The notes beneath the pieces were generated by a model, which was given only the letters and a program-made list of their open reading frames with translations, was not told the origin of the DNA and searched no databases. Source: Prosthecobacter sp. (lineage in GTDB: Bacteria; Verrucomicrobiota; Verrucomicrobiia; Verrucomicrobiales; Verrucomicrobiaceae). Taken from it: a stretch of 45,343 bases of DNA. The position numbers and the translations under genes are program-made. The stretch's first letter is position 1. Each line of letters begins with the position of its first letter. The DNA lies in the NCBI GenBank assembly GCA_021733925.1, contig JAIPJY010000057.1, positions 1-45,343 on the forward strand. Direction: 5' to 3'. Below, piece by piece: positions 8,220 to 37,373 of the stretch.

Positions 8220-11200
8220 TCACGGCTGATCGATGGTGCTGGAGATGTCCACGGGGGGCTCGCCGGCTATTTCCTTTTCGACGGGTTGTACTTTGATTTC
8301 GACGTTCACGGGGACGGCTCGGAGGCCTTCGATGATGCGTTGCAGGCGCTCGATGGTGACGTCGGACAGGGTGGGCTTGCTGACGGCTTGCTCGATCTTT
8401 TCCAGGCCGAGGGTGAAGGCGTTCATGTGGCCGGTGATGCGGTTGATGGGATCGTTTTCGCCAGCGCCGCCGGTGAGGAGGTTGCGTTTGAAGGTGCTCT
8501 TAATTTCGGTCCAGCGAATGGTGTCGGCAGGGGTGGAGAGGGCGTTGATCTCGCGCCATTTGAGGAGGTTTGATTCTGCGGCCTGGCTGAGGGTTTGGGC
8601 TTCGCCGCGATAGTGATCGGCGATCAGGCTGGCAACTTCGGCGTCGGTCATGAGCGGGAGGATTTTCTCCGCGATCTTGTTCATGTTGCGGTAGCTGCCC
8701 TGGAGCTTGAACGGGGGCTCGGTGCGGTAGGCGTCCTCCATGGCGGCGCTGCGTACGTATTCCTGATTCACGCGCAGGATGATCTCGCGCACGTGGAGGA
8801 GTTTTTCCATGACGACGACGCCTTCGTTGATCTCCTCGGCGCTGTAGCTGCCTTCAAACTCGACGCCTTCACGGGTGCCGGTTTGAGCGACTTTTAAAAC
8901 GGCGAGGGCATCGGCATGACTGCGTGCGGAGATGCGTGCCAGTGTGGCATTGCTGGTGAGGCAGTTTTCGATGTAGCTGTCTTTGAAGACTTCCGCATGA
9001 CCACCGAGGATATCGCCGAGATTGTAGGTGTCGGCGCGGTTGGCGAGCATGTCGGGCACCTGGAATTTTCCGCCGACTTCGGTGTAGGGATTGCCGGCCA
9101 TGACGACGGCGACTTTGCGGCCTCGGAGGTCGTAGGTTTTGGCTTCTCCTTTGAAGACGCCTTCGATCTTGCGAGTGCCGTCGCAGAGGGAGATGAATTT
9201 TTGCAGGAACTCGGGGTTCGTGTGCTGAATGTCATCGACGTAGATCATGACATTGTCGCCCATCTCGAAGGCGAGGTTGAGCTTCTCGACTTCTTCACGC
9301 GCGCTGGCGTTGGCGGCCTCGGCGGGGTCCAATGAGGTGACTTTGTGGCCGAGGGCGGGGCCGTTGATTTTGACCAGCGTGATGCCGAGGCGGCTGGCGA
9401 CGTATTCCATGAGCGTCGTTTTGCCGTAACCGGGCGGTGAGATGAGCAGGAGCATGCCCATGCGGTCGGTGCGGGTGTCCTTGCCTGCGGCACCGAGTTG
9501 TTTCGCGAGGTTGGCACCGATGAGCGGCAGATAGACTTGATCGATAAGGCGGTTGCGCACGAAGGAGCTGAGCACGCCTGCTTTGAACTGGTCGAGACGC
9601 AGTTCACGGCGGCGGGTGTCGGCGAGGCGATGCTTGAGCGACTGGAAGGCTTCAAACGCAGGCACGACGTCGGCTTCGTAGCGTTGCAGGCGCGTGGTGA
9701 ACTCGTGGTAGTTGAGTTCGAGTTTCGCTTCGGCGATGCGTGCGTGGGTGCCGATCAAATCGATGATTGTGGCATGTGCCGTTGGCTCGGTGGGGATCGC
9801 CGCTGGCGGCTGATCGTTGGTCACGACCATGGCTGCCGTTTCGACGAGCACGTCGGGGGCGGTGGAGGGATTCAGTGCGGTGATCCACTCGAGGGCGATT
9901 TCGAATGCGAGCAGCGGCAGCGCGGCGAGTGAGGCTAGAGTTTCTTCGAACTCCTTGGTGGCGTGTTTGACGGTGAGTTCTCTGCGGAAATCATGCAGCA
10001 GCTTGATGGCGGCAACGGAACGAGTGAAGTGATGCTTTGACTGGAGTTCGTCGAGGAGGCAGGCGGTGATTTGCAGCGGCGATGCTTGCGGTGGTGTACT
10101 GCCCAACAGAGTTACGACACGTTTTACCAAATCGTTATCGACTGATGCATTCGAGATGCCGAGAAGATCGCGCATGCGCCCCTTGGACTGCATGCGTGCC
10201 GTGAGGGCTTTTTTCGCGTCATCCTCGGGCCAGGCGTGCCAGAAGAGGCGAGCGTAGCCGCGGGCGGCGGGGGAATGGCGGAGGAGGCCGAGGGCTTGCT
10301 GCATTTCGCGCAGGGGTTTCAGCAAGAGAGAGGCGTCGTGATCGTGCACGCCCTTGGTGTAGCCTTCGTGATAGCGCTGGGCCATGAAGGTGGCCACGTC
10401 GTCGCTGGCACCGGTTTTGAGCATCTGCCAGGCGAGGTATTCGGCGCGATAGACGTCTGCGTTTTCCGAGACGACGGGCTGATCCCAGACACTGCGCTGG
10501 GTTGCGAGTTCCGCGTTTTCGACGGTCTCGAAGAAACGGGTGCCGGTGAGGTGGAAGGCGAGTGAATTGTCGCGCGGGAGGATGGTGAGCTCCAGCGGCT
10601 GCTTGTTCACGCTGAACTGATGCTGGCCGAGCTGGATGAGGTCGCCACCGCCGACGAAGATCTCCGACTTGTCGCGGATCTGCTTGATGGAATCCTGCTG
10701 GACGGTCTTGAGGCGGGTTTGCAGTTCGTCGGCGCGGACGCTGTCGCCGATCTTGCGCAGTTCTTCGATGAGGTCGCGCAGCTTGGCGACCATGGCATCG
10801 GAGGCGAGCCAGGCGTGGACTTCTTCGGGTTTGGCGAAGTTGGCGAGGCGGTTGCGGATGCTGGTGAGGATGCGTTCGGCGGACTGGCCGAGGCTGCCGC
10901 AACGGCGGTTCAAGGCATCGCTGAGGCTCTGACGTCGCGACTCGAAGGCGGACTGCACCTCTTCGCGCTTCTTGATCAGTTCGGCGGCGTAGTCGTCGAA
11001 GTCGGAGAAGCGGGTCTCCATTTCCTCGATTTGTACGAGCACGCGGGTGAGCGATTCGTCGCACTTCTCCGGAGTGGTCGCGACTTCGAGGTAGTTCAGG
11101 ACGCTCTGGCTGAGGAGGCTGAGCTGGGCTTGGAACTGCGCTGCACCTTCGGTGCGAGCGAGGTCGTTGCGACGGTTGCGCAGCACGCTGCGCACCTGGT

Positions 11201-16602: not shown

Positions 16603-17265
16603 TTAGTTTTGAGGAGCGGGTTCGATCAGGTAAAAAATGTTGTCGGGGCCGGCGGAGATGACTTTGGCCGAGTCGCCGCGTTTCAGCGGTGCGACGCCGG
16701 GCTGAGTGCGGACATTGATCAGCAGGGGGACATTGGCGGTGGTGATTTCAAGCTGGCCGTAGGAGGCGTCTGCCTCTGTGGAGGTGACGACCCCGGTGCG
16801 GCCAATGACCTCCTCGGCTTCGGAGTCGGCATCACCCATGGCTTTGAAGAGCTTGGCGACCGGGTAGGTGACGAGCTTGGTCACGATTAGACTGCCGAGG
16901 AGGTTGGGCAGCAGGAGCAAGGCGGCCTGTCCAAAGCTGCCCGGCTGATTGTACCATTCATTCAGCATGAGGGAGCCAAACCACATGAATAGGATCATGA
17001 AGCTGAGCCAGACCATGAGAGGCACCTGGGAGAAGCCGAGGAAACGACCCACGGAGAGCCAGGCACCGCCAGTGCTCATGCCAAGAGCGTGTGTGGAGCC
17101 GGTGCCGTGGTGGGCATCGCCGTCCGTACCCAGATCGTCCGGAAGATCGGCCTCGAAATCCAGTGCGCCGAGGAGGACCAGGAGCCAGTAACAGACGACC
17201 AGTGTCAGCAGCAGCGAGAGCAAAAGCTGGTGTGGCTGAATGGCGGCGTGGAAGAGTTCGAACAC
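16603..17265 (-). CDS. YqiJ-like OB-fold membrane protein, flotillin partner
   Basis: 220 residues with a GTG start. Membrane helices lie at roughly 13-34, 80-100 and 108-130, with an acidic and His-containing loop (DFEADLPDDLGTDGD) after the first. The C-terminal part (about 150-215) is beta-rich, GRTGVVTSTEADASYGQLEI...GDSAKVISAGPDNIFYLIEP, the form of the NfeD-like OB fold. YqiJ/NfeD proteins are almost always encoded next to flotillins and are thought to form a complex with them. It is the first gene of the operon; its promoter should lie within 17266-17500. Confidence 0.85.
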   Translation of the reverse strand: MFELFHAAIQPHQLLLSLLLTLVVCYWLLVLLGALDFEADLPDDLGTDGDAHHGTGSTHALGMSTGGAWLSVGRFLGFSQVPLMVWLSFMILFMWFGSLMLNEWYNQPGSFGQAALLLLPNLLGSLIVTKLVTYPVAKLFKAMGDADSEAEEVIGRTGVVTSTEADASYGQLEITTANVPLLINVRTQPGVAPLKRGDSAKVISAGPDNIFYLIEPAPQN

Positions 17266-17511
17266 GGTGGAAGGGCTGGCTTAAGGGTGATGTGCGATAT
17301 AAGCAACTGACCGGAGACGAGGCGATTACAATTTTGCAGAACGTCTTCAATGCAATTAGCGCAGCCTAGGCGCATGCGCCCGAGGGTGTAAATAAATTCC
17401 TGATTTTCGCAGTGGTGGTGGTTTGAAAAAACGCGCGGAGAAAGGGGGCGTTCGGGCGGGATGGAGGTGTGCATGTGGCTGTGCGGCCGTGTAGATGGCC
17501 GGTGAGAAGCG

Positions 17512-17539
17512 TTGACAACAGTGGCGCTGCTCCTAGAAT
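17512..17539 (+). promoter_or_regulatory. Sigma70-type promoter of the PurA-like gene
   Basis: TTGACA (17512-17517), a 16-base spacer and TAGAAT (17534-17539): the best canonical promoter in the window. Transcription would start near 17546. The rest of the 17266-17600 stretch holds no gene I can support; it must also carry the flotillin operon promoter on the other strand, which I cannot pinpoint. Confidence 0.6.
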
Positions 17540-17600
17540 CGGCCTCGAAATCACCCAGAACAAAAGCACAGCGAATCGTCAGTCAGTGGAGGTTACCGGC

Positions 17601-17843
17601 ATGAGGAACACAGAATTTGAAGACGAACGGCGTCCGCCCAATCCACCGTTGCATTCCGAAAAAATCATCACGGATCGGAAGATTTTTTTCCTGGATCTCA
17701 AGGAGAATGAGCGCGGCAAGTTCATCAAGATCACCGAGGACGTTCGCGGCCGCCGTGACACGATCATTTTGCCGATCGACGCTGCGCAGGAGTTCCTGGA
17801 CGCCATGATGCGTACGGTGGACGCTGCGGGTGTGGATGAGTGA
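17601..17843 (+). CDS. PurA/DUF3276-type single-stranded nucleic-acid-binding protein
   Basis: 80 residues with the Pur-alpha repeat pattern: EKIITDRKIFFLDLKENERGKFIKI, a beta-hairpin with alternating aromatic and basic residues, then TIILPIDAAQEFLDAM, the closing helix. Bacterial one-repeat proteins of this kind (DUF3276, Borrelia BpuR) bind single-stranded DNA and RNA as dimers and can repress translation. The start at 17601 is fixed by a clear Shine-Dalgarno, GGAGG, eight bases upstream, one of the few in this window. A strong promoter lies at 17512. It is likely monocistronic. Confidence 0.85.
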   Translation: MRNTEFEDERRPPNPPLHSEKIITDRKIFFLDLKENERGKFIKITEDVRGRRDTIILPIDAAQEFLDAMMRTVDAAGVDE

Positions 17844-18489: not shown

Positions 18490-19416
18490 TCACACGAACC
18501 GGATCACGTGCTTCTGCCCGTGCTCGTCGTGCGCGGGATTGAGGGCGCGGAGTTCGAATTCGGCGCGGTCTGAGTTGATGCGGACGATGACCCAGCCGTT
18601 GGGGCGCTTGGGGTCGAAGACGTAAGCGATGGGGGGGAGATTGATGAGCGGGAGGCCGGTCTTCTCGTGCTTGGTTTTCTGCCAGGTGTGGGTGTGGCCG
18701 TAAATGTAGCCCTGCACCTTGGGGTAGGCGGCGAGGAGGTCGAAGAGGGCATCGCTGTCCTGGAGGCAGCTGCCTTTGCCTTTGTCATCCATGCTGGGCT
18801 GCATGGGATTGTGATGCCCCACGATGAAGGTGGGCTTGTTGGGTGAATTGCGCAGTTCGCGCTCGATCCACACGAGCTGGGGTTCGCCCAGCATGCCGGG
18901 GGTTTTGTTTACCAGGTCCAGCGAGTCGAGCAGGATCCAGTTTACCTGGGCGCTGGTGACGGTGGCGACGTGCTTGTCCGGCACGTTCATGGGGCGCTCG
19001 GCATTGGGCGGCGGCGGGCCGATGATGGCGTTGAGGAAGTTGGTGCGGTGGTCGTGGTTGCCGAGGGTGCAGTGGATCTGAATGGACTGCTCGCGCAGGG
19101 CCTGGATGCAGTGACCGAAGGCAACGTAATCCTCTGTTCTGCCCTCCAGGTAGGCGCAGTCACCGTTGACGATGAGGCCAAAGGGCTTCTGGCCGATTTT
19201 GAGCACCTGATTGGCGCAGCGGCGCAGGTTTTCCGCCATGCAGGCGCCGCGTGCGACGAGTGACTCGTCCTCGGCGATGTGGGGGTCGGAAAACAGGACC
19301 CAGATCTGTTCAGGGATCTCCAGCGCGGGAAGCTGAGTGACGAATGAACCCAGGGCAGCGGCGGTGCCGTGCTGCAGAAAGCTGCGGCGGGAAAGTGGGG
19401 GCAGGGTGATGGGCAT
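18490..19416 (-). CDS. Tat-exported metallophosphoesterase
   Basis: 308 residues. The N-terminus SRRSFLQHG plus an Ala-rich stretch is a twin-arginine signal. The calcineurin-like metal-binding motifs are all present in order: SDPHIAE (D-x-H), VNGDCAYLEG (GD), GNHDHR (GNH[D/E]), VGHHNP (GH) and GHTHTW (GHxH). Two divalent metals should be bound in the periplasm; the substrate (phosphodiester or phosphomonoester) is not indicated. An upstream in-frame extension to 19524 is rejected since the Tat signal begins at MPITLPP. It lies 53 bases downstream of upp on the same strand and may be read with it. Confidence 0.88.
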   Translation of the reverse strand: MPITLPPLSRRSFLQHGTAAALGSFVTQLPALEIPEQIWVLFSDPHIAEDESLVARGACMAENLRRCANQVLKIGQKPFGLIVNGDCAYLEGRTEDYVAFGHCIQALREQSIQIHCTLGNHDHRTNFLNAIIGPPPPNAERPMNVPDKHVATVTSAQVNWILLDSLDLVNKTPGMLGEPQLVWIERELRNSPNKPTFIVGHHNPMQPSMDDKGKGSCLQDSDALFDLLAAYPKVQGYIYGHTHTWQKTKHEKTGLPLINLPPIAYVFDPKRPNGWVIVRINSDRAEFELRALNPAHDEHGQKHVIRFV

Positions 19417-19469
19417 GGAGAGAATGAAACGCAGTTCAGAGGTCGGATCGTGCGAACAGGAAGCAAACT

Positions 19470-20102
19470 TCAGGTGCCAAAGTAGCGGTCTCCCGCATCG
19501 CCGAGGCCGGGGACGATGTAGCATTTGTCATTGAGGCCGGCATCGATGGCTGCGGTGACGATGGCCACATCTGGATGGGAGAGTTCCATCGCCGCCAGAC
19601 CTTCCGGGCAGCTCACCACGCAAATCATGGTGATGCGCAGGGCTCCGGCCTCCTTGAGCTGGCGTGCGGCCTCGCAGGCGCTGCCGCCGGTGGCGAGCAT
19701 GGGGTCCAGCAGGAAGACATCTGCAGCGGAGAGGTTGGAGGGCAGATTGGCATAGTAGGCATGCGGCAGGGCGGTTTCCTCATTTCGCCTGATGCCCACG
19801 TGGGCGACGATGGCGTCAGGCACGAGCGGCAGAATGCCATCCAGCAGGCCGAGTCCGGCGCGCAGGATGGGCACGCAGACGAGCGGGCGGGCCAGCTGTG
19901 CGCCCAGGGTTTGTTTGAGCGGAGTCTGCACGCTGATCTCCTGCACGGGAAGCTCACGGGTGGCTTCGAGGAAGAGGATGCGCGCAAGATGGTTCAGATG
20001 CCGCCGAAAGTCATGCGAAGGGGTGCCGGCGGCACGGATGGCGGCGAGATGGCACTGTGCCAGAGGATGCTGAACGACGACAACGGGCTGCATGCAGGGC
20101 AT
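19470..20102 (-). CDS. upp: Uracil phosphoribosyltransferase
   Basis: 210 residues, the standard length. It converts uracil and PRPP to UMP in pyrimidine salvage. The PRPP-binding loop DPMLATGGSA and the uracil-binding C-terminus GLGDAGDRYFGT are canonical, and PILRAGLGLLDG is the usual flexible-loop region. The start MPCMQPVVVV (20102) gives the family length; an upstream in-frame ATG at 20156 would add 18 residues that do not resemble Upp. It is divergent from the lipoprotein gene at 20171, so both promoters must fit in about 70 bases. Confidence 0.95.
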   Translation of the reverse strand: MPCMQPVVVVQHPLAQCHLAAIRAAGTPSHDFRRHLNHLARILFLEATRELPVQEISVQTPLKQTLGAQLARPLVCVPILRAGLGLLDGILPLVPDAIVAHVGIRRNEETALPHAYYANLPSNLSAADVFLLDPMLATGGSACEAARQLKEAGALRITMICVVSCPEGLAAMELSHPDVAIVTAAIDAGLNDKCYIVPGLGDAGDRYFGT

Positions 20103-20170
20103 TGTGACGCGTTTGCCGGTGCTGGCAAAGTTTTCCACCACCGGGTTGACGTTCATGATACCATGGAGGC

Positions 20171-20662
20171 ATGAAAACGCGATTCTGCGTGCCTGCCGTG
20201 CTCGCACTTTTCCTGGGCGCTTGTGAGAGCGCACCGAGGGGGGATGGTTCGAGTTATTATTATCCGTCTGCCAATCGTCCGGCCGCGACGCCGCGCAGCA
20301 GCACCAGCCAGAGCATTGCCAGCATGGCGGGCAGCAGCGGCCCTCCCGTGCCGCGTGGTGGGTATGCCCCGGGTTCGGGACCGACGGCGATGCCGCAGGG
20401 GAACCAGTTCATGTATCAGCAGAATGTGTCAGGCCCCTTTGGCAGCCGCAGTTCGAGCGGTGTCATCAACGCCTACGGCGGGGTGCAGAGTTATCAGACC
20501 ATTGGTGGCATGCCGGTCTATCCCGGCATGGCGGTGCCGTACAATAACAACTCGCGCTATTATGGCAGGATGCCGACGCAGCCGGTGTATGTGCCGGGTG
20601 TTGGCGGCGCTCCCGGGTATTACATGAACCCGAGCACGGGGGCGCATGTGCCGGCGCCGTAG
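20171..20662 (+). CDS. Low-complexity lipoprotein
   Basis: 163 residues. A lipoprotein signal peptide ends at the lipobox LGAC (Cys at about residue 18). The mature part is rich in Ser, Pro, Gly, Tyr and Asn with little predicted structure (YYYPSANRP, NNNSRYYGRM, ending in HVPAP), so it is probably an extended, surface-exposed or cell-wall-associated protein. No domain recognised. Its stop codon is 6 bases from the stop of the convergent DedA gene. Confidence 0.75.
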   Translation: MKTRFCVPAVLALFLGACESAPRGDGSSYYYPSANRPAATPRSSTSQSIASMAGSSGPPVPRGGYAPGSGPTAMPQGNQFMYQQNVSGPFGSRSSSGVINAYGGVQSYQTIGGMPVYPGMAVPYNNNSRYYGRMPTQPVYVPGVGGAPGYYMNPSTGAHVPAP

Positions 20663-22362: not shown

Positions 22363-22848
22363 ATGGACTCCCATGAAGTGATCAGCAAGGCCGTCGAGCA
22401 AACCAGTTTCAAGGAGGTTGCGGCGCAGATGGGCGTCTCCCTCTCGCTCGCCTACAAGTGGTCCCAGCCCGATGAGCAGCAGGGCAGCGGAACCTCCAAT
22501 CCACTGGACCGCGTGCGCCAGTTGTTTGAAATCACCAAGGATCCGCAGCTCATCCAGTGGCTCTGCCACAAGGCGAACGGCGTCTTCGTGCAGAACCCCA
22601 CCAGCGGCGGACCGCGTGGCATGGAGCTGATGCCTGCCACGCAGGAAATCGTCCAGCAGTTCGCCGATCTCCTCACCGCCATCAGCAAGGCCGCTTCAGA
22701 CAGCCGCATCAGTTTGGAAGAGGCATCCCACATCCGCGGCGTGTGGGATGAATTGAAACGCTTCACCGAAGGGTTCGTCCGTCACTGCGAGAGGGGCGAG
22801 TTTTCCAACCTCGCGGATGAGATCAAAACGCACCGCAGCTTTAAATAA
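22363..22848 (+). CDS. Phage CII-like helix-turn-helix DNA-binding protein
   Basis: 161 residues. The N-terminal region (about 3-40) reads as a helix-turn-helix, FKEVAAQMGVSLSLAYKWSQP, followed by NPLDRVRQLFEITKDPQLIQWLCHKANGVFV, an arrangement recalling phage CII/CP76-type regulators. The C-terminal half is helical and probably dimerises. Similar proteins occur outside prophages, and no phage genes surround it here, so I treat it as a chromosomal regulator with unknown targets. The cupin gene follows after 33 bases and may be co-transcribed. Confidence 0.7.
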   Translation: MDSHEVISKAVEQTSFKEVAAQMGVSLSLAYKWSQPDEQQGSGTSNPLDRVRQLFEITKDPQLIQWLCHKANGVFVQNPTSGGPRGMELMPATQEIVQQFADLLTAISKAASDSRISLEEASHIRGVWDELKRFTEGFVRHCERGEFSNLADEIKTHRSFK

Positions 22849-24228: not shown

Positions 24229-24483
24229 ATGAGCGAGAACGAACGCAACACTCTGGTGCCTGACATCCGTGAAGTCCTTGCACAGCATGGACGATTCCCC
24301 GTGGAGAACCTCGAGGAAGGCGATGATCTTTACAACGCCGGACTGACGTCCCTGGCAACGGTGGCGGTGATGCTGGCGCTGGAAGACAAGTTCAATGTCG
24401 AGTTTCCCGACAATCTGATCGGCCGCCGCACCTTCAAGAGCATTGAATCCATCGCGGAGGCGATCACGAAGCTCGCGGCCTAG
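24229..24483 (+). CDS. Acyl/aminoacyl carrier protein
   Basis: 84 residues with the four-helix carrier-protein pattern. The phosphopantetheine serine is Ser41 in AGLTSLATV; the usual DSL is TSL here, as in several dedicated aminoacyl carrier proteins. Acidic helix 2 (ALEDKFNVEFPD) is kept. It is the first gene of a six-gene operon; the amino acid:carrier-protein ligase two genes downstream suggests it carries an aminoacyl rather than a fatty acyl group. No Shine-Dalgarno; start is set by family length and the element 23 bases upstream. Confidence 0.9.
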   Translation: MSENERNTLVPDIREVLAQHGRFPVENLEEGDDLYNAGLTSLATVAVMLALEDKFNVEFPDNLIGRRTFKSIESIAEAITKLAA

Positions 24484-24547
24484 GACCAGGTTTAGAAAAT
24501 GCTCCAGTTTTCAAGTCCGTATCACCCCCATCCCCCAATACCATCCT

Positions 24548-25729
24548 GTGAGCACGCTTTGCAGCACCGAAGTCGATTTCGACGAACTTTTGAAGGAGGT
24601 GCATGCGCTGGGCAAATCTGTGCTCCGAGTGCATGCGGCGGATGTGGATCAAAAAGCGCGCTTCCCGGCGGAGTCGGTCGATGCCATGCGCAAAGCGCGC
24701 CTGCTGAGCGCGTATGTGCCTGAAGAGTATGGTGGCATGGGTTTGAGCCTCGTGCAGGTGGCGAAGATCTGCGAAACGCTGGGCCAGTACTGCGGCTCGT
24801 CGGCCATGATTTATGCGATGCACAAGATTCAGGTGGCGTGCGTCGTGCATCATGCCCAGCAGTCCGAATTCTTCTGCGACTATTTGCGAAGGCTGGTGGA
24901 TGAGCAGCGACTCATGGCCTCTGCGACGACGGAGATCGGCACGGGCGGAGACCTGCGCTCCAGCATTTGTGCGGTGGAAGTCACGGGGGATCAGTTCAAG
25001 CTCACCAAGAAGGCGCCCGTCATTTCCTATGGAGAGTATGCGGATGAGATTTTGGTGACCTGCCGCAGTGCGCCTAATGCGCCGGCGAATGAGCAGGTGC
25101 ACGTCATGGTGCGCAAAGGAGAGTACACCGCCGTGCCAATTTCGACCTGGGACACGATGGGTTTCCGAGGCACCTGCAGTTCGGGCTTTGAGCTGACTGC
25201 AACAGGCAGCGCGGAGCAGATCATTCCGCAGCCGTTCAATGAGATTCTGGGGCAGACGATGCATCCCTACTCGCACATCGTGTGGGGCGCGCTGTGGTCG
25301 GGCATTGCGATGGATGCGGTGAACCAGGCCCGTGCTTTTGTGCGTGCCGAAGCGCGCAAGACGCCTGGCGAAACACCCATCTCGGCCATCCGCCTCGGTG
25401 AGGCCGATCAGGTGCTGCAGGTGATGCGGCACAATGTGGCGGCACTGGCTCGTGAATACGATGAGCTGCGCAGCCGCGACTGCCCGGATGTATTTGAAGA
25501 GTTTGGTTTTTCCATCCGCACCAACAATTTGAAGCTGTCCTCATCGCAGCAACTCGTGGACATCGTGGGCCGGGCGATGCTGATCTGCGGCATCTCGGGT
25601 TATCGCAACGATTCCAAATTCAGCATTGCACGCCATCTGCGTGATGCGTATGGCGCGGCGCTGATGGTCAACAACGACCGCATTTTGAAACTGAACGCCA
25701 CAATGCTGCTGGTGCACAAGGAAGGCTGA
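24548..25729 (+). CDS. Acyl-CoA dehydrogenase-like flavoprotein acting on carrier-bound substrate
   Basis: 393 residues with a GTG start; the in-frame ATG at 24443 overlaps the carrier-protein gene and lacks family support. The fold is that of acyl-CoA dehydrogenases: N-terminal helical domain with VPEEYGGMGLSLV, central beta domain (ATTEIGTGGDLRSS and TKKAPVISYGEYADEILV, FAD site), and C-terminal helices. Where typical enzymes have the Glu-containing GTNEI segment near the end, this protein has MVNNDRILKLN, so the catalytic base may differ. It lies 64 bases after the carrier protein and 3 bases before the ligase. Relatives beside aminoacyl carrier proteins may oxidise carrier-bound aminoacyl groups; that role is inferred here. 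Confidence 0.85.
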   Translation: MSTLCSTEVDFDELLKEVHALGKSVLRVHAADVDQKARFPAESVDAMRKARLLSAYVPEEYGGMGLSLVQVAKICETLGQYCGSSAMIYAMHKIQVACVVHHAQQSEFFCDYLRRLVDEQRLMASATTEIGTGGDLRSSICAVEVTGDQFKLTKKAPVISYGEYADEILVTCRSAPNAPANEQVHVMVRKGEYTAVPISTWDTMGFRGTCSSGFELTATGSAEQIIPQPFNEILGQTMHPYSHIVWGALWSGIAMDAVNQARAFVRAEARKTPGETPISAIRLGEADQVLQVMRHNVAALAREYDELRSRDCPDVFEEFGFSIRTNNLKLSSSQQLVDIVGRAMLICGISGYRNDSKFSIARHLRDAYGAALMVNNDRILKLNATMLLVHKEG

Positions 25730-25732
25730 TTT

Positions 25733-26668
25733 ATGACGTGTACATCCACCGCAACCCTCCCACTCACTGAGGCCTATCAGGCGTTTCTTGACCAAGTCAC
25801 GGAAGCCGGACTGCTCGTGCCGCTCGGTGTGCGCGGCGTGTATGGCTACAACGGTGTGTTTGACGGCGTGCTGCAAAGTTTTGACCGCCTTGTCACACGT
25901 CGAGCAGCGCACTTTCAGGCGGATGTGCTGCGGCTGCCCGGGGTGCTGAGCCGCGAGCATTATTTGAAGACGAGCCACCTCGAAAACTTTCCGGACTTGA
26001 TGGGCTCTGTGCACAGCTTCATGGGACGTGAGCGTGAACATGTGGGGATGCTGACGAAGCGCGAAAACGGCGAAGAGTGGACCCAGGACCTGGCGCCGAG
26101 CGCGCTGATGCTGTCTCCCGCGTGCTGCTATCCTTTGTACCCAACGGTGACAGGTACGATATCGAACGAGGGCAAGACGGTGGATCTGCTTTCGCAGGTG
26201 TTCCGGCATGAGCCGTCGATTGATCCGTGCCGTTTGCAAATTTTCCGCCAGCGTGAGTTTGTCCGCATTGGCACGGCCGAACAGGCGCTGGAGCATCGCA
26301 AACAATGGCTGGAACTGGGCCGCGACATTCTGGGGGAGGTCGGTCTTGGAGTGGAGATCGTGCTGGCCAATGATCCGTTCTTCGGGCGTGGTGGGCGTGT
26401 GATGGCGGCCTCGCAGAAGGATCAGGATTTGAAGCATGAGTTCACTTTTGCGGTAGCGACTGAGGAGAAGCCGACGGCAATCGCCTCGACCAACTGCCAC
26501 ATGGATTACTTCGGCAAAGCCTTCGACATCCAGCTGCCGAACGGTGAAGCGGCGCATTCGGCGTGCATCGGGTTTGGGCTGGAGCGCATCACGCTGGCCT
26601 TGTTCAAGCACCACGGATTCGATCCTGACCGCTGGCCGTATGAAGTGAAGAACGCCCTGGAACTATGA
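25733..26668 (+). CDS. Amino acid:[carrier protein] ligase (class II aaRS homologue)
   Basis: 311 residues. Homologue of the catalytic core of atypical seryl-tRNA synthetase without a tRNA-binding domain. Motif 2 is FRHEPSIDPCRLQIFRQREF and motif 3 is GFGLERITLALF. The zinc ligands described for the Bradyrhizobium enzyme have counterparts in Cys131 (SPACC; Cys132 is adjacent), Glu175 (REFVRIG) and Cys278 (HSACIGF), so the enzyme looks active. It activates an amino acid (Gly or Ala in characterised enzymes) with ATP and loads it on the phosphopantetheine arm of a carrier protein, here presumably the product of 24229. Its stop overlaps the next gene by four bases (ATGA). Confidence 0.92.
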   Translation: MTCTSTATLPLTEAYQAFLDQVTEAGLLVPLGVRGVYGYNGVFDGVLQSFDRLVTRRAAHFQADVLRLPGVLSREHYLKTSHLENFPDLMGSVHSFMGREREHVGMLTKRENGEEWTQDLAPSALMLSPACCYPLYPTVTGTISNEGKTVDLLSQVFRHEPSIDPCRLQIFRQREFVRIGTAEQALEHRKQWLELGRDILGEVGLGVEIVLANDPFFGRGGRVMAASQKDQDLKHEFTFAVATEEKPTAIASTNCHMDYFGKAFDIQLPNGEAAHSACIGFGLERITLALFKHHGFDPDRWPYEVKNALEL

Positions 26669-27642
26669 GCCAGCCGTTTCCAGCGCTTGATCCACAAACA
26701 TACGTGCGTCATCGCCTGCACACGCAGGAGCGCGAGTGGGCGGAGACGAACTGCTACGTGGATGTGTGGATCGAAGTATTGCATGCGCGGGGGCTGGAGC
26801 CGATAGCGGCTTTGCCGTTCACGCTGGGCATCGACTTCGAAGGCGACCAGTGGACCTTTTTCAAATACCAGCTGGCGGATTTGTACGATCTCTATGGGCT
26901 CGATGTGCAAGAGCTTGCGATCTATCGCCCGCTGACGGCGCACATCGAGGAGCAGTTGTCGCTGGGACGACCGCTGCTGGTCGAACTGGATTCGTTTTAT
27001 CTGCCTGACACGGCTGGCAGTGCCTACCAGCTTGAGCATGTCAAAACGACGGTGGCCATTGCGGAGATCGACATGGAGCAGCAGCGCCTGGGCTACTTTC
27101 ACGCGCAGGGCTACTATCACCTGCAGGGGGATGATTTTGCGCATGTGTTTCATTTGCGCGGCGAAAAGAATCCTGCGATTTTGCCGCCCTACTGCGAGGT
27201 TGTGAAGACTGCGGCCATGCCCGCGCTGCAAGGCGAGGCGCTGCTGAATGCGTCGCTGGGCTTGCTGCGGCGTCAGTTGCAACGACTGCCGGAGGTGAAT
27301 CCGTTCGTGAAGTTTCGAGCTCGCTTTGAGGCCGACATGCAGTGGCTTATCCATGAGCCGATCGCCACGTTTCATCAGTACTCTTTTGCCACGCTGCGTC
27401 AGTTTGGTTGCTGCTATGAGCTGGCAGGTACTTACCTAAAGTGGCTGCAGAGCCAGGGGGTGGGTGGGCTGGATGAAGCCATTGAGTCGCTGCTCCGGCT
27501 CTCCACCGGTGCGAAGACGCTGCAGTTTCAGCTGGCACGTGCGATGGCGCGGAAGAAGGCGATTGATTTCACACCCGTCGATCAAATGGCGGAGAACTGG
27601 ACCTTGGCGATGCAGCAACTGAAGGCGGCATTTCCCGCGTAA
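26665..27642 (+). CDS. DUF1839 family protein, possible papain-like acyltransferase
   Basis: 325 residues. The N-terminal half shows conserved DUF1839 features: ETNCYVDVWIEVLHARGL (Cys30), TLGIDFEGDQWTFFKYQ, LLVELDSFYLPDT, and EHVKTTVAIAEID (His125) followed by GYFHAQGYYHL. The Cys...DxFyLPD...H order resembles the butirosin BtrH N-terminal/C39-like papain fold, whose founding member moves an acyl group from a carrier protein to a sugar. By analogy Cys30-His125 could transfer the aminoacyl group. This assignment is my inference; DUF1839 is known mainly as a neighbour of amino acid:carrier-protein ligases. It is translationally coupled to the ligase, and the next gene starts after 5 bases. Confidence 0.75.
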   Translation: MSQPFPALDPQTYVRHRLHTQEREWAETNCYVDVWIEVLHARGLEPIAALPFTLGIDFEGDQWTFFKYQLADLYDLYGLDVQELAIYRPLTAHIEEQLSLGRPLLVELDSFYLPDTAGSAYQLEHVKTTVAIAEIDMEQQRLGYFHAQGYYHLQGDDFAHVFHLRGEKNPAILPPYCEVVKTAAMPALQGEALLNASLGLLRRQLQRLPEVNPFVKFRARFEADMQWLIHEPIATFHQYSFATLRQFGCCYELAGTYLKWLQSQGVGGLDEAIESLLRLSTGAKTLQFQLARAMARKKAIDFTPVDQMAENWTLAMQQLKAAFPA

Positions 27643-27647
27643 CCACC

Positions 27648-30152
27648 ATGACGGAACCCGTTCACTTTGCGCCGTGGGCATGCTGCGCGCAGGCTCCCGG
27701 AGCCAGCACTGAACCGGGTGCGGGGCAGGGAGACTGGTTTGCCGCTGAGGTGCCGGGCACGGTGGCTTCGGCACTGCGCGCGCGTGGCCAGTGGGATCAT
27801 CAAAATCCACCGGATCTTGATGGGCAGGACTGGTGGTATCGCACAAGCTTTGCTACGACAGCGCGAATGGCTGATGAGCCCTGCGCCTTGTGTTTCGATG
27901 GGCTCGCATCGCTGGCGGACGTGTGGCTCAACGGGGAACTCATTCTGAGCTCGAACAACATGTTCCGCAGCCATCGCGTGGATGTGGCGCGAGTTTTGCG
28001 CGATGAGAATGAGCTGGTGATCTGCTTTCGTTCGCTCACGGCGGACTTGAAGAAGAAACGTCCGCGTCCGCGCTGGAAAACCAACCTCGTGAACAACCAG
28101 CAGCTACGCTGGCAGCGCACGAGCCTGCTGGGACGCATTCCTGGATGGTCGCCACCGGTGCCTGCGGTGGGGCCGTGGCGTGAGGTGAGACTGGAGCGTG
28201 CTCCCGTGCTGCTGACGGACATCCAAAAGACGGCTTTGCTCGTGGGGGACGAAGGCGTTGTCAGTTTTCGTGCGCGGGTGGCGTCGTCGTTGAAGATCCT
28301 CTCGGCGCGGCTGCAGATCGACGGGCAATTTGAGGAGCTTGAGTGTGAGGATGATGTTCTGCGCGGTGAGCTGCGCATTCAGCACCCTGAACTGTGGTGG
28401 CCGCACACGCATGGCGTGCCGGCGTTGCATGACGGCAAGGTGATCATCGAGACGAGTGCAGGTCCGCATGAGTTTCCGCTGGAGCCAACGGGTTTTCGGC
28501 GGATCGAGGTTTGTGACGATCCTGGGTTTGCCATTCATGTAAACGGTGAGCGCATTTACTGCCGGGGTGCGTGCTGGACGACGAACGATATTTTTACGCT
28601 GGGTGGAACGGTGGAGTCGCTGCGGCAGGATCTCACACTCGCGCGTGATGCGGGCATGAACATGCTGCGCATCGGCGGCACGATGACCTATGAGAGTGAT
28701 GCGTTTTACCGCCTCTGCGATGAACTGGGCATCCTCGTCTGGCAGGACTTCATGTTTGCCAACATGGACTACCCCGCGGAGGACGCTGCGTTCGCTGAAA
28801 ACATCACGATTGAAGCGAAGCAGCAGCTGGACCGATTCGCGCAGCATCCCTGTGTGGCGGTTTACTGTGGTAACAGCGAAATCGAACAGCAGGCGGCGAT
28901 GCTGGGCATGGCGCGTGAGCTTTGGCGCAACGGCTGGTTTGGAGAGAAGCTGCCTGCGCTGTGCAGCCTGCATCATCCTGGCACGGCGTATGTGCCGTCA
29001 TCGCCGAGTGGCGGAGTGCTGCCGTTTCACACGCGGACTGGCGTCACGCATTATTACGGCATCGGTGCGTATCTGCGCTCTCTGCGCGAACTGAGGCAGG
29101 CGGATGTGAAGTTCACCAGCGAGTGCCTGGGCTTTGCGAACATCCCGGAGACGGAGACGATTGATGAGATCATGGGCGGCCTGATGCCGGTGATGCACCA
29201 CCCGCGCTGGAAGCAGCGTGTTCCGCGTGACACCGGTGCTGGATGGGACTTTGAAGATGTGCGGGATCACTACCTGCGTGAACTGTTCAATGTCGATCCG
29301 GTGACGTTGCGCTCGTTCGACATGCCGCGTTATCTGGAACTGAGCCGTGTGGCATCGGGCGAGATGATGGCGCGAACGTTTGCGGAATGGCGCAGTGGTC
29401 ACAGCCGCAACGCGGGTGCATTGGTCTGGTTCTACAAGGATCTGTGGCCGGCGGCGGGATGGGGCATTGTTGACAGTGCCGGAACCCCGAAGGCTGCGTA
29501 CTATCAGCTCAAGCGCGCGTGGCAGACGAGACAGCTGACGCTCACGGATGAAGGTCTGGATGGGTTGCATGTGCATCTCAGCAACGAAACGGCCGAGGCA
29601 GTCGAGGGCTTTGTGGAAGTGCAGTTGCTGCGTGAGCCGAATGTGGTCGTCGCACGACATGAGATCGCATTGAAAGTGGACGGGCGCGCGCTGGAGATGC
29701 GCAGTGTCGATGAAATTCTCGGTTCGTTTTTTGATGTGAACTATGCGTATCGATTTGGTCCGCAGTCGCATCATGTGGTGATCGCGACGTGGTTCAGCGC
29801 GGAGCGTGAGGTGATCAGCGAGTCGTTTCATCTGACCCGCACACGTGATCCCGTGGCGCAGCCATTGTCAGCGGAGATGCTGGATGCCAAGGTGGAGGCG
29901 CTGTGCAACGGGCGCTACCAGCTGACGCTCAAGAGCGACCGGTTTTTGCACAATGTGAGATTGTCGGCCAAGGGGTATCTGCCTGACGACAACTATTTTC
30001 ATCTCGTACCGGACCGGATCAAAACAGTCTCCTTTTCGCCATGCGCTGGGGTGAGCAGGGTGATTGAAGTTTATGTTGAGGCCCTGAACGTGGCGGGCGA
30101 AATTTCAGTGGAGCCTCGTAGTGCATCCCACGAAACTCATCATGACACCTGA
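27648..30152 (+). CDS. GH2 family beta-mannosidase-like glycoside hydrolase
   Basis: 834 residues in GH2 order: an N-terminal jelly roll with GLASLADVWLNGELILSSNNMFRSHRV, an Ig-like domain, the TIM barrel from about 300, and C-terminal beta domains. The acid/base is Glu411 in GNSEIEQQ and the nucleophile is Glu492 in TSECLGF. RGACWTTNDIF and MNMLRIGG are typical of beta-mannosidases. No signal peptide is present, so it should act in the cytoplasm, unusual for a degradative mannosidase and suggestive of trimming or transglycosylation of a biosynthetic glycan. It sits inside the aminoacyl-carrier operon, 5 bases after DUF1839 and overlapping the hydrolase gene by 11. Confidence 0.88.
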   Translation: MTEPVHFAPWACCAQAPGASTEPGAGQGDWFAAEVPGTVASALRARGQWDHQNPPDLDGQDWWYRTSFATTARMADEPCALCFDGLASLADVWLNGELILSSNNMFRSHRVDVARVLRDENELVICFRSLTADLKKKRPRPRWKTNLVNNQQLRWQRTSLLGRIPGWSPPVPAVGPWREVRLERAPVLLTDIQKTALLVGDEGVVSFRARVASSLKILSARLQIDGQFEELECEDDVLRGELRIQHPELWWPHTHGVPALHDGKVIIETSAGPHEFPLEPTGFRRIEVCDDPGFAIHVNGERIYCRGACWTTNDIFTLGGTVESLRQDLTLARDAGMNMLRIGGTMTYESDAFYRLCDELGILVWQDFMFANMDYPAEDAAFAENITIEAKQQLDRFAQHPCVAVYCGNSEIEQQAAMLGMARELWRNGWFGEKLPALCSLHHPGTAYVPSSPSGGVLPFHTRTGVTHYYGIGAYLRSLRELRQADVKFTSECLGFANIPETETIDEIMGGLMPVMHHPRWKQRVPRDTGAGWDFEDVRDHYLRELFNVDPVTLRSFDMPRYLELSRVASGEMMARTFAEWRSGHSRNAGALVWFYKDLWPAAGWGIVDSAGTPKAAYYQLKRAWQTRQLTLTDEGLDGLHVHLSNETAEAVEGFVEVQLLREPNVVVARHEIALKVDGRALEMRSVDEILGSFFDVNYAYRFGPQSHHVVIATWFSAEREVISESFHLTRTRDPVAQPLSAEMLDAKVEALCNGRYQLTLKSDRFLHNVRLSAKGYLPDDNYFHLVPDRIKTVSFSPCAGVSRVIEVYVEALNVAGEISVEPRSASHETHHDT

Positions 30153-31986
30153 GCCACAGGACCAGGCCAGGCGGAGCGCGTTCTATTTTGAGAGCGGTGG
30201 GAGGTCGTTGTTTGCGTGGCTTCACCGTCCCGCTCATGCTGTGGCTGAGCATGGGGTGCTGATCTGTCCGCCGCTCGGACATGAACAGGTTCATTCACAT
30301 CGTGCGCTGCGACACCTCGCGGACAGGCTGGCGGCGCAGGGTTTTGCGGTGGTTCGGCTTGACTATCATGGCACCGGCGACTCCGACGGCACGGAATACG
30401 ATCCGCAACTTTTGGCCACGTGGCAGGCGAATGTGAATGATGCGGTGGAATGGCTGCGCAAGGAGGCGGGCTGTCGGAAGATCAGTCTCGTGGGCCTGCG
30501 CATGGGAGCGACTCTGGCGGCGATGTACGCGGAAAAGAACGAGGTGGAGAGTCTGGTGCTGTGGGCGCCCATTGTGAAAGGCCGGCGCTACGTGCGCGAA
30601 CTCACCGCCTTGAGTCAGACCGCGCAGCTGGCTGCGGGCAGTGATTCAGCAGGCATTGAAGCCATGGGCTTTGTCTATTCACATGAGACAGTCGGCGAAC
30701 TCGCGCAGATGGATCTGCTGTTGCATTCGGTACGTTGCGAGCGGGTGTTGATCGCATCCAATGCGAGCGCGGCGGGTGACTCGGCGTTGCTGGACCATCT
30801 TTTGAAGCAGGGAGTGTTGGCGGAGCTGATGGCGCTGCCTGGGTATGAGGGAATGATGGCCGAACCTCATGAGACCGAGGTGCCGCATGAAGCCCTGCGG
30901 AGCATTGCTGATTGGATGAAGGCCAAGGCACAGCCTGTTGTAGCTGCGTGTGGTGCAGCGTCCTCTCCCGGTGTAAAATCGATGCTGACCCATGGTGCTG
31001 ACTCGGTGCGCGAAAGAATTCATCAGATCAGCAGCGTGCCCGATTTGTTTGGCATCATGACGGAATCGACGGAGCAATCGACCTCACTGCCGTGGATCGT
31101 CATGCTCAATGCTGGCGCCGCGTACCGGATTGGTCCGGGGCGAATCCATGTGGCACTGGCGCGGCAGCTTGCGGCGCTGGGTTATCCCTGCCTGCGGCTC
31201 GACATCAACGGCATCGGCGACAGCGTGGCCGCAGATCCTGAAAAAGAAAATGACACCTACGCGGCGACCGCTTTCCGCGATGTGGACTTGGTGTGCGACT
31301 ACCTGAAAGCGCTGCAACCCGGCCGCCCCATTGTGTTGCTGGGTCTGTGCTCCGGCGCCTACGTGGCCTTTCAGGCTGCGGCACGGCTGACGCATCCGTC
31401 CATCATCGAGGGCATCCTGATCAACCCCCTCGTTTATTTCTGGAAGGAGGGCATGACCATCAATGACACGAACACCGACCAGCTTGTGGCGTGGCGTGAG
31501 TATTGGAATGCGCTCTTCAAATGGAGCCAGTGGAAGATGCTGCTCACCGGCAAGACGCGCCTGGGGTTTACCGGATCGCTGAAACGCTTTGCGGGCCATC
31601 TGATGCCGCGATTCCAGAGATTTGGCAGGTCAACTGCAGCGAGCGAGAAGCCTGAACCGCAGAGCGACTGGGGGCATCCGGCGCGCAAAGACCTGCCCGG
31701 AGATTTGAGCCGTGTCGCTGCTGCGGAGCGAACGCTGGCCATGTTTGTTTCCGACAACGATCCGGGGCATTTTCTGCTGATGTTCCAAGCGCGGCGCAAG
31801 GCCACGCAGCTGATGAAGCAGGGCAAATTGCAATGCCACTTCATCCACCAAGCGGATCACACCTTCTCCACCGCACAGGCGCGCCAGACTTTTTATCGGT
31901 CGCTCACGGGCTACCTGCATCAGCGCTTTAGTTCTGGGTTGATCGAGGAGCGGGCCGTGGATGATGGAAGTGCGCTGACGGCGTGA
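30142..31986 (+). CDS. Double alpha/beta hydrolase, exosortase-associated type
   Basis: 614 residues with two alpha/beta hydrolase domains in tandem. The first (about 10-280) has LICPPLGHEQVHSHRAL and RLDYHGTGDS and, at the nucleophile elbow, GLRMG (118-122), i.e. Arg120 in place of Ser, as in exosortase A-associated hydrolase 2. The second (about 315-600) has LNAGAAYRIGPGRIHV, RLDINGIGDS and the elbow GLCSG (401-405) with Cys403, as in exosortase A-associated hydrolase 1. These usually separate genes appear fused here. Substrate unknown; a thioesterase or glycan-deacylase role would fit the operon. No exosortase is present in the window. The ATG at 30142 overlaps the GH2 gene. Confidence 0.82.
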   Translation: MTPEPQDQARRSAFYFESGGRSLFAWLHRPAHAVAEHGVLICPPLGHEQVHSHRALRHLADRLAAQGFAVVRLDYHGTGDSDGTEYDPQLLATWQANVNDAVEWLRKEAGCRKISLVGLRMGATLAAMYAEKNEVESLVLWAPIVKGRRYVRELTALSQTAQLAAGSDSAGIEAMGFVYSHETVGELAQMDLLLHSVRCERVLIASNASAAGDSALLDHLLKQGVLAELMALPGYEGMMAEPHETEVPHEALRSIADWMKAKAQPVVAACGAASSPGVKSMLTHGADSVRERIHQISSVPDLFGIMTESTEQSTSLPWIVMLNAGAAYRIGPGRIHVALARQLAALGYPCLRLDINGIGDSVAADPEKENDTYAATAFRDVDLVCDYLKALQPGRPIVLLGLCSGAYVAFQAAARLTHPSIIEGILINPLVYFWKEGMTINDTNTDQLVAWREYWNALFKWSQWKMLLTGKTRLGFTGSLKRFAGHLMPRFQRFGRSTAASEKPEPQSDWGHPARKDLPGDLSRVAAAERTLAMFVSDNDPGHFLLMFQARRKATQLMKQGKLQCHFIHQADHTFSTAQARQTFYRSLTGYLHQRFSSGLIEERAVDDGSALTA

Positions 31987-34375: not shown

Positions 34376-35628
34376 AGACGATCACGCTTGCCACGAGTAC
34401 CACGCTGCAGCTGCCCATCCAGCAGCCGATGCGTGCCTTTGTGGCTGCGCAATCCATGCCGGCACCCGCACTCGACCGGCGCCCGGTGGTGCTGCACTTT
34501 GCCTACAGCATCGGCGGTGGTGGCGCGGAGGCGATGCTCATGAACCTGGCTGAATCGCTCGATCCGGCGAAGTTCCGCACCGTCGTCGTGGCCATCAATG
34601 CCAAGCCTTGGACCCATCAGCTGAAGCGGCTGCATGAGGCAGGGGTGGATGTGCATGACCTCGAAAGCACCACCTATCTCAATGCGCGCACACTCGCGAG
34701 ACTGCACGCCGTGCTGCGTGCGGAGCGTCCTGACATCGTGCAAACGTGGACGCATCACGCCGATCTCGTCGGTGGCTGGGCTGCACGGGTGGCTGGGGTG
34801 CGAAACATTGTCTGGAGCATCCATTGCCGAGAAATCCACCGCAATCCCGGCGACAGCGACGCCAAGATGGGGCTCTTCCGCCGTGCGCTGGCGTTCAGCT
34901 CGCGTTTTATCCCAAAGCGCATCATTTCCTGCTCAGCCGCTGCCATTGAAGATCACGACGCCATGGGCTACCCGCGCGCGAAAATGCGCTGGATTCCCAA
35001 TGGCATCAATGCCGGGCGCTTTGTGCCCGACACGGATGCCGGGCTCGACACACGTGCCGAATTGAAACTTCCGGCGAACGCACCGGTGATCGGCTTTGTC
35101 GGACGTTTTCATGAGATGAAGGATCTGGCGACCTTTCTGCGCGCAGCGGCCCTGCTCCAGACCTGGGTGCCCGAAGCACACATTGTCTTCTGCGGTGGGG
35201 TCGAAATCGAACTGGGTGAAGTGGAGCGTGAGCTGCTGGCCATGCTGCCGCAGCGTCAGCAGGTGCACTTTGAGTCTTTCCGTGCCGATCCGTGGCGTTT
35301 GTATCCGGCGCTGAATGTGTTCTCACTTTCCTCGCGCACTGAAGCTTGCCCGATGACCATTCTTGAGGCGATGTCCTGCGGTGTGCCTTGTGTCGCCACG
35401 GATGTGGGTGATTGCGGACGTCTGCTTGAGGGTGTGGGGCAGGTCGTGCCGATGCGCGATCACTCCGCGCTGGCCAGCGCCTGGCAGAAGGCGCTGCAGC
35501 TCGGTGCAGCCGCGAGAGAAGAAATCGCCCGGAAGTCACGCGAGCGAGTGCTTGAGAAATTTACCATCGCCCATGCTGCGCGGCAGTATGCGGAAACCTA
35601 CGCAGAGCTTGTGGAGGTGAAGTCATGA
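34372..35628 (+). CDS. GT4-family glycosyltransferase
   Basis: 418 residues of GT-B fold. The N-terminal Rossmann domain has GGGGAEAMLMNLAESL, typical of retaining GT4 enzymes binding lipid-linked or sugar acceptors, and the linker GFVGRFHEMKD starts the donor domain. The E-x7-E motif is RTEACPMTILEAMSCGVP (Glu324, Glu332). It should transfer a sugar from a nucleotide donor during polysaccharide assembly at the cytoplasmic face. It overlaps its neighbours by four bases on both sides. Confidence 0.92.
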   Translation: MKTITLATSTTLQLPIQQPMRAFVAAQSMPAPALDRRPVVLHFAYSIGGGGAEAMLMNLAESLDPAKFRTVVVAINAKPWTHQLKRLHEAGVDVHDLESTTYLNARTLARLHAVLRAERPDIVQTWTHHADLVGGWAARVAGVRNIVWSIHCREIHRNPGDSDAKMGLFRRALAFSSRFIPKRIISCSAAAIEDHDAMGYPRAKMRWIPNGINAGRFVPDTDAGLDTRAELKLPANAPVIGFVGRFHEMKDLATFLRAAALLQTWVPEAHIVFCGGVEIELGEVERELLAMLPQRQQVHFESFRADPWRLYPALNVFSLSSRTEACPMTILEAMSCGVPCVATDVGDCGRLLEGVGQVVPMRDHSALASAWQKALQLGAAAREEIARKSRERVLEKFTIAHAARQYAETYAELVEVKS

Positions 35629-37373
35629 GGGCGCTGCTGCTCTTAGTGCTGACAATTTCTGCGGCTGCCCAGCCGGTGAAAGTAGCGTTTTGCGATGGCA
35701 TGACGCGCATTTCCCGTGACGGAGCCGCACCGACGGCGGCCACGAACACCCTGTACGCAGCGCGCGGAGAGTGGGAGCCACTGCAGATCATTGTCACCGC
35801 CACGCCGGAACAGCTCAAAACCATCCAGGTGATCGCCACGGGGATCGCCAAGCAAGATTCGGACGCCCTGCTGCCAGCGCCGAAGGTGCTGCGTGAGCAC
35901 TACGTGCGCGTTTCCAAGCCGACGCCGATGGCACCGCTGCCGCCGGGCGATTATCCGGATGCGCTGGTGCCGCTGGACATGCCTGCGCAGGAAATCAGCG
36001 GCACTGAGGTGGTGAATCAACCGTACTGGGTGGATGTCTTCGTGCCCTACACGGCTGCACCGGGGGCATACACTGGCGAAGTGCGGTTCGAGTTTGCCGA
36101 TGGCATGAAGGCCATTGCCAGCTACACGCTCAATGTGTGGGACTTTGACCTGCCCGTGGTGCCGAAGCTGCGCACTTCGATCATGACCACGGTGCGTCAC
36201 GTCGCCCAAGTGCATGGATTGGAGTATCATGACAACACACCTTCGCTGGCGCACATGGGTTTGCTCAACGCGTATTACGACCTGCTGGCCGAGCATCGTC
36301 TCAGCGTGGATCAAATCTACGGCAGCTATCCCGACGCCAGCACTGGCAAATTGGATGAAGACAAGGCCGAGCGGGCATTGAGAAAGCATCTGCTGCACCG
36401 CCATTGCAACAGCATCGGCCTGCCGATCTGGCCGCAGTGGCCGTTCAAAGACCCCTTGGGCGAAGATCGCGCTGCGGCGATGAGTTATGTCGCGCAATGG
36501 ATGAAGCTGCTGGCGAAAATCCACTGTGAGTCACGCGGCTACGTCATCATGGGAGATCTCGATGAGCCGAACGATGAGGCGGCCTATGACACCGTGCGCC
36601 GGTGGGGCGACTTCTTTAACGAGGTGGAAAAAAAGCATGGCGTGCGTGTGCCGCTGCACGTCACCGAGCAGCCGACAGCCGAAAAGGCCGCGTGGGGTTC
36701 ATTGAACGGTGCGGTGGACATCTGGGTGCCGCATTTCAGCGAAGTGTGGAAGGACATGGAGTGGGCCGGTGGCAAGCACGACATCGCTCTGCGTCGTCAG
36801 GCCGGTGAGGAAGTCTGGGCCTATGCCGCGCTGGTGCAGATGCCGGTTGCCTGGGAGGAGCAGCATGGCAGGCCCAAGCAGCTCACGAGCAGCTTTCCTC
36901 CCGTGTGGGCGCTCGACTATCCGCCGATGGCGCATCGAGTTGTCGGCTGGTTGTTTCCCAAGCACGGCATCACCGGCTTTGATTATTGGGACACGATCTT
37001 TGCGGCTGAAGGTGTCGATGTCTGGCAGGATGCGGGCACTTTCAAAACGCCCGATGGTGCGACCTACAATGGCGACGGCAGCTACATTTATCCTGCCACG
37101 GAGAAGCGTCAGGGCCGCAACGCCCCGGTGGCGTCCATGCGTCTGAAATGGCTGCGTGAGACGGCGGAGGACTACGATTACCTGATGCTGGCGCGTCAAC
37201 TGGGGCTCGAAGATGAGGCACGGCGTCTCACGGCCCGTTTTGCGCGTGGCTTTGGCGACTGGGATGACAATTCCGGCGCGCTGCTGAATGCACGCCAGCT
37301 GCTGGGGGAACTGATTGAATCCGCACAGCTTCGCAAACAAACCGCCGCCGTGCCGACAGGAGGTGCCAAGTGA
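35625..37373 (+). CDS. DUF4091 domain, TIM-barrel glycosidase-like protein
   Basis: 582 residues. A signal peptide (MRALLLLVLTISAAAQ) is followed by a beta-sandwich of about 165 residues and a large TIM-barrel region characteristic of DUF4091 proteins, with DLDEPNDE (candidate acidic catalytic residues), VPHFSEVWKDM and GFDYWDTIFAAEGVDVWQD. Proteins of this kind are predicted glycoside hydrolases, but activity is unproven for most. Export and position in a polysaccharide operon suggest polymer trimming or release in the periplasm. Coupled by ATGA to the glycosyltransferase and by GTGA to the GNAT gene. Confidence 0.82.
   Translation: MRALLLLVLTISAAAQPVKVAFCDGMTRISRDGAAPTAATNTLYAARGEWEPLQIIVTATPEQLKTIQVIATGIAKQDSDALLPAPKVLREHYVRVSKPTPMAPLPPGDYPDALVPLDMPAQEISGTEVVNQPYWVDVFVPYTAAPGAYTGEVRFEFADGMKAIASYTLNVWDFDLPVVPKLRTSIMTTVRHVAQVHGLEYHDNTPSLAHMGLLNAYYDLLAEHRLSVDQIYGSYPDASTGKLDEDKAERALRKHLLHRHCNSIGLPIWPQWPFKDPLGEDRAAAMSYVAQWMKLLAKIHCESRGYVIMGDLDEPNDEAAYDTVRRWGDFFNEVEKKHGVRVPLHVTEQPTAEKAAWGSLNGAVDIWVPHFSEVWKDMEWAGGKHDIALRRQAGEEVWAYAALVQMPVAWEEQHGRPKQLTSSFPPVWALDYPPMAHRVVGWLFPKHGITGFDYWDTIFAAEGVDVWQDAGTFKTPDGATYNGDGSYIYPATEKRQGRNAPVASMRLKWLRETAEDYDYLMLARQLGLEDEARRLTARFARGFGDWDDNSGALLNARQLLGELIESAQLRKQTAAVPTGGAK

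Follow-up and report, generated by a model that had tools for sequence, protein, structure and literature searches.

What becomes of an amino acid once a relative of the aminoacyl-tRNA synthetases (aaRSs) has loaded it on a carrier protein? According to a 2022 review, the role of carrier aminoacylation was still unknown (PMC9437257). The question is raised anew by a six-gene operon in a 45,343-nucleotide stretch of a Prosthecobacter sp. genome (contig JAIPJY010000057.1; hereafter the window), where all six open reading frames lie on the plus strand between positions 24229 and 31986. They encode a carrier protein (CP), an acyl-CoA-dehydrogenase-fold flavoprotein (ACAD-like), an amino acid:[carrier protein] ligase, a DUF1839 protein, a GH2 enzyme and a fused α/β-hydrolase pair. 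An initial annotation had listed these packed genes with gaps of 64, 3, −4, 5 and −11 bases, and both the reading frames and our matches to Pfam and NCBIfam models bear this out; the GTG start of the ACAD-like gene was picked from the first of these gaps and is in frame. The six genes appear to load a small amino acid on the carrier and pass it to an amine, perhaps on a sugar, and the most likely product would be an amino-sugar compound with an N-aminoacyl group. This would give the ligase, a carrier-loading enzyme of unknown role, a function open to experiment, its near-constant partner gene having the predicted fold of a carrier-to-amine transferase.

To follow residues across homologues, we aligned the window with 89 further loci (L016, L022 and L027–L113). 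A score threshold removed one degenerate Cupriavidus DUF1839, the split ACAD-like gene of L101 and partial GH2 and hydrolase copies; the resulting counts are of sequences rather than independent events, several Agrobacterium loci being near-identical. CP (24229–24483) is acyl-carrier-protein-like, scoring 96.6 bits against NF005480 (cut-off 72) and matching PF00550. Its Ser41, already proposed as the carrier site, is invariant in 88 of 88 carriers and would be the residue that receives phosphopantetheine; a phosphopantetheinyl-transferase gene lies upstream of CP in 13 of the 89 loci. The ligase (25733–26668; 311 aa), a class II aaRS homologue, scores 396.1 bits against NF005479 (curated cut-off 357). 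It matches the structures of the homologous Bradyrhizobium amino acid:[carrier protein] ligase 1, Bll0957 (PDB 4h2w and 3mey; E = 7 × 10−65), whose locus number neighbours that of the acyl-CoA dehydrogenase Bll0958, much as the window ligase adjoins an ACAD-like gene. Cys132, Glu160 and Cys278, kept in 85 of 85 aligned sequences, fit the Cys-Glu-Cys zinc site that we take to define these ligases. The protein matches only residues 303–505 of the 518-residue SerRS model, with no match in the model's N-terminal part, and loss of the tRNA-binding domain marks amino acid:[carrier protein] ligases (PMC9437257). The ligase assignment of the initial annotation thus stands. Judged by family and zinc site, this enzyme very probably activates a small amino acid and loads it on CP; homology, together with background knowledge and PMC9437257, would make that amino acid glycine or alanine.

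The next step would fall to the DUF1839 protein (26665–27642; PF08893, 402.9 bits, cut-off 22.5). Structure comparison, including Foldseek, predicted a papain-like core plus a helical part, the fold of CcbD, CtaG and AziU3. Cys30, at the start of helix 30–41, and His146 are each invariant (90 of 90), and position 129 is Thr in 87 sequences and Ser in 3. This pattern appears to fit the swapped Cys-(Thr/Ser)-His order set out in PMC10318531, with Thr or Ser at papain's His place and His in the third triad position. The fold, the invariant cysteine and the gene linkage argue that DUF1839 is probably an aminoacyl:amine transferase, in which Cys30 would accept the aminoacyl group and hand it to an amine, the amide-forming reaction that CcbD carries out on an amino sugar. 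Loading of a small amino acid on CP and its transfer by DUF1839 are, taken jointly, somewhat favoured by the genes, their order, their residues and their predicted folds. In a Cupriavidus plasmid locus (L033) we also noted two DUF1839 genes, at 12001–12924 (+) and 16819–17661 (−); the operon copy has lost the catalytic Cys, and the lone copy retains it.

Conservation of the gene set was examined in relatives and then across bacteria. The ligase was found in 13 of 96 relatives, with 10 above the cut-off including the window genome, and all six genes were present in each of the nine other above-cut-off carriers. The remaining three relatives (L024–L026) hold a divergent ligase subfamily of about 250 aa, with weak matches near 9.8–11.1 kb beside small, weakly carrier-like reading frames; no ACAD or DUF1839 match was seen within those 20 kb. 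When a genome collection was searched with a DUF1839 alignment of 11 sequences, at least 563 relatives came back, and the 80 that scored best were kept (four, L034–L037, appear shared with the nine). Their record titles place them in Verrucomicrobia, Planctomycetes, Proteobacteria, Chloroflexi, Acidobacteria, Gemmatimonadetes, Actinobacteria (mostly Acidimicrobiales) and Abditibacteriaceae, many of them metagenome bins. Where the respective place was in view, CP was present in 73 of 73 loci, the ACAD-like gene in 78 of 78, the ligase in 75 of 79 and GH2 in 62 of 67, and, of 62 loci, 50 had a hydrolase no more than 6 kb away (39 on the same strand, 11 convergent; that of L048, more than 6 kb off, was scored as a miss). 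Because all nine of the other above-cut-off ligase carriers among the relatives share the six genes, and the 80 wider loci share most of them, the set is not a chance assembly. The neighbourhood search proposed by the initial annotation for ligase, DUF1839 and GH2 therefore turned up a conserved gene order, the reverse of the outcome that would have spoken against its idea. Pairwise divergences of the ACAD-like, ligase, DUF1839 and GH2 proteins across 75 loci correlate with r of 0.82–0.93 (none of 500 permutations exceeded 0.12), so this set evolves as a unit, which fits shared descent or block transfer alike.

Within clades the module is patchy, as low DUF1839 counts in three samples indicate: one of 387 genomes across the phylum (the window genome itself), three of 229 in the class of Reinekea and four of 289 in the class of Reyranella, the centre genome counted in the latter two. 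In the Reyranella-class sample the ligase model matched 13 of 289 genomes, seven above the cut-off, and the ligase directly adjoins DUF1839 in all four genomes that have the latter. The three above-cut-off ligases without DUF1839 adjoin an ACAD-like gene (L120 and L121) or a carrier plus a hydrolase match (L119). The ACAD–ligase pair of L121 (5200–9770, −) is followed by a pyridoxal-phosphate-dependent enzyme of Cys/Met metabolism and a homoserine O-succinyltransferase-like gene, perhaps another use of the same loader.

Plasmids carry the module as well. Among plasmid records, 59 have DUF1839 and 93 have the ligase, 22 of the latter belonging to Streptomyces; in seven plasmid loci inspected, the five genes from CP to GH2 were present in all seven. 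A hydrolase follows them in Azospirillum lipoferum, A. brasilense Sp7 and Mycetohabitans rhizoxinica, lies about 6.7 kb further on in the Cupriavidus locus and had no match in those of Rhizobium gallicum, Methylobacterium and Caballeronia. With the same six genes in Azospirillum and Mycetohabitans, the coupling to GH2 and hydrolase genes is not new to the window, contrary to what the initial annotation had supposed.

What the remaining enzymes would do is read from their residues. The ACAD-like protein (24548–25729; PF02771, 58.5 bits, cut-off 22.9) has the acyl-CoA dehydrogenase fold with N- and C-domains. In an alignment read by eye, no catalytic Glu was found at either base position: MCAD-376 and IVD-254, which we take to be the known sites, are occupied by Val374 and Ser242, the latter directly followed by an invariant His243. 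The dehydrogenase of PDB 7p98 likewise has a non-Glu residue (Thr) at the first base position. The flavoprotein would alter a carrier-bound acyl group, before or after the transfer by DUF1839. GH2 (27648–30152; PF22666, 98.6 bits, cut-off 27) matches PDB β-mannosidases (best E = 3.9 × 10−55). Of the two positions that are presumably its catalytic Glu pair, 492 is Glu in 79 of 79 sequences and 411 is Glu in 74, Asp in 4 and Gln in 1; no signal peptide was seen by eye. It may trim or transfer a β-mannoside-type sugar of the acceptor or product. The fused protein (30142–31986) resembles exosortase-A hydrolases 2 and 1, in that order, with scores under the curated cut-offs (TIGR03101, 141.5 versus 168.45; TIGR03100, 122.4 versus 202.75). 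Calling it a double hydrolase was misleading, since among 62 aligned sequences the N-terminal half has Arg (49) or Gly (13) at the nucleophile place (120, GLRMG), whereas the C-terminal half has a Cys nucleophile (Cys403, GLCSG) in all 62. The Cys-nucleophile half might make a second acyl transfer or clear mischarged carrier.

Known systems resemble this operon in part. The lincosamide condensing enzymes CcbD and LmbD differ in working with an adenylation domain instead of a class II aaRS homologue, and no GH2 or ACAD partner is named for them in the source text at hand, whereas the window operon has both. BtrH of butirosin synthesis is described in PMC10318531 as catalysing papain-like acyl transfer from carrier to aminoglycoside, a role like that predicted for DUF1839. 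By sequence comparison only, BtrH_N (PF14399) is weakly matched by 10 of 46 aligned DUF1839 proteins (best 0.019) and not by the window protein at E ≤ 1. The exosortase-A cassette (TIGR03098 ligase with TIGR03100/TIGR03101) has two hydrolases, one with Arg in place of the nucleophile and one with Cys, a pattern shared by L053 and the window; it differs in that the window pair is fused and scores under the curated cut-offs (as does that of L053), and in that the window ligase and acyl transferase come from other families.

Several observations weigh against the proposed pathway. The Cys30-(Thr129)-His146 order proposed for DUF1839, which follows PMC10318531, would be unlike the Cys-His-Glu triad of CcbD. 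Identity between DUF1839 and CcbD is only 9% (13–14% by Foldseek), and a search of PDB sequences with a profile built from 46 DUF1839 proteins gave no credible relative, its single row having E = 7.1. Within 6 kb, GH2 is absent from 5 of 67 loci and the hydrolase from 12 of 62, and no acceptor gene is common to the loci. Four loci (L049, L056, L057 and L065) keep CP, ACAD, DUF1839 and GH2 without the ligase, which was not found elsewhere in those genomes, some of them metagenome bins and possibly incomplete. In Reinekea (L065), a nearby amino-acid adenylation DltA-like gene (18786–20375) suggests a replacement loader; such genes also lie close to the ligase-bearing L053 and L064, and the scanned neighbours of L049, L056 and L057 include no clear substitute.

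The acceptor is the weakest link. That it bears a sugar is a tentative proposal, drawn from the chemistry of CcbD and BtrH, the GH2 enzyme with intact catalytic residues and the Acidimicrobiales neighbours. Of the 89 loci, 8 have a PF02397-type sugar-phosphate transferase close to the operon, as counted by scanning one representative and joining others by BLAST clustering of flanks with approximate gene starts. Six of these are Acidimicrobiales, with the gene directly after GH2 or DUF1839 at gaps under 340 bp; no other observation speaks more strongly for a glycan acceptor, though in essence it comes from one clade. More speculative still is the full proposal of a widespread, undescribed pathway in which an aaRS relative loads a carrier, a papain-fold enzyme with a rearranged triad joins the amino acid to a sugar amine and a cytoplasmic β-mannosidase trims the product, giving an aminoacyl-glycoside in bacteria from Planctomycetota to nitrogen-fixing rhizobia. 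If true, amino acid:[carrier protein] ligases would thereby gain their first known end use.

Two end products are compatible with loading and transfer, each on its own rather unlikely. In one, the aminoacyl group would sit on a polyprenol-linked or exopolysaccharide (EPS) sugar and the operon would be accessory to EPS assembly. Besides the PF02397-type transferases, this envelope-glycan option draws on GT4 genes near the operon in L090 and L100, on the polysaccharide deacetylase, GT4 and other genes downstream in the window, and on the exosortase-A-like hydrolase, with three exosortase-family matches elsewhere in the genome (the family also matches 1 of 14 control genomes, an archaeon). Against it, the EPS genes occur without the operon in sister species: in G008 and G004 the regulator-like gene found upstream of the operon (window 22363–22848, named by eye) and the PF06439 gene found downstream are about 570–580 bp apart with EPS genes behind, and in G032 the same interval of 3.6 kb has no match to the six genes (the fetched regions L117 and L118 do not display this site). 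In another genus (L016), the operon is preceded by a homologue of that regulator-like gene (56% identity), yet the 3.8 kb viewed behind the operon showed no EPS gene of those found downstream in the window. The operon and this EPS locus can therefore occur apart. Actinobacterial L082 has no PF02397-type transferase in its cluster, and Azospirillum and Mycetohabitans have no adjoining EPS locus, albeit with single glycan-related genes within about 10 kb (GT9 and a sulfotransferase; GH1 and an α-galactosidase; an aminoarabinose transferase and a lipoteichoic acid synthase). Decoration of a glycan or lipid-linked precursor, as first annotated, thus keeps its transfer step, backed by the CcbD-like fold, but its lipid-linked glycan acceptor is unproven.

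In the other, equally doubtful, the product would be a soluble glycoside or a natural product of peptide-like kind, made in the cytoplasm and then exported or used as a signal or protectant. Against it, no exporter or resistance gene is a frequent neighbour by flank clustering or among scanned neighbours; single cases include the MFS gene of L063 and, in the Agrobacterium group, an ABC transporter. It is improbable that DUF1839 is instead a hydrolase or peptidase that strips aminoacyl groups, so that the pathway merely recycles or edits carrier-bound amino acids: PMC10318531 does assign it to a papain-like peptidase superfamily and propose glycan processing at the cell wall, but the structural relatives that it matches over nearly its full length, the C-terminal helices among them, are pathway enzymes or acyltransferases that depend on a carrier, and peptidase-like rows score about 5.7–6.7 and mostly stop near residue 190. 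The idea of the initial annotation is strengthened at its core, aminoacyl loading and transfer, and corrected in its details.

The surroundings of the module vary. In the window, the same-strand genes downstream of the operon encode the PF06439 protein, the deacetylase, GT4 and a GH123-like protein, followed by FemAB/GNAT-like and then Wzc-like genes, both named by eye. The GH123-like protein (35625–37373), under Pfam cut-offs and between the GT4 and FemAB-like genes, is kept in relatives. On the Rhizobium gallicum plasmid (L028), the five genes lie on one strand just after nifHDK, nifN, nifX, fdxB and a small EPS repressor gene, a position hinting at a role in nodules. Because the module spans many bacterial groups, including this root-nodule plasmid and bacteria inhabiting the fungus Rhizopus, its product may matter in several ecologies. 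In an Abditibacteriaceae locus (L061), a GH99-like gene (10944–12326; 31.2 bits, Pfam cut-off 33) sits between DUF1839 and GH2.
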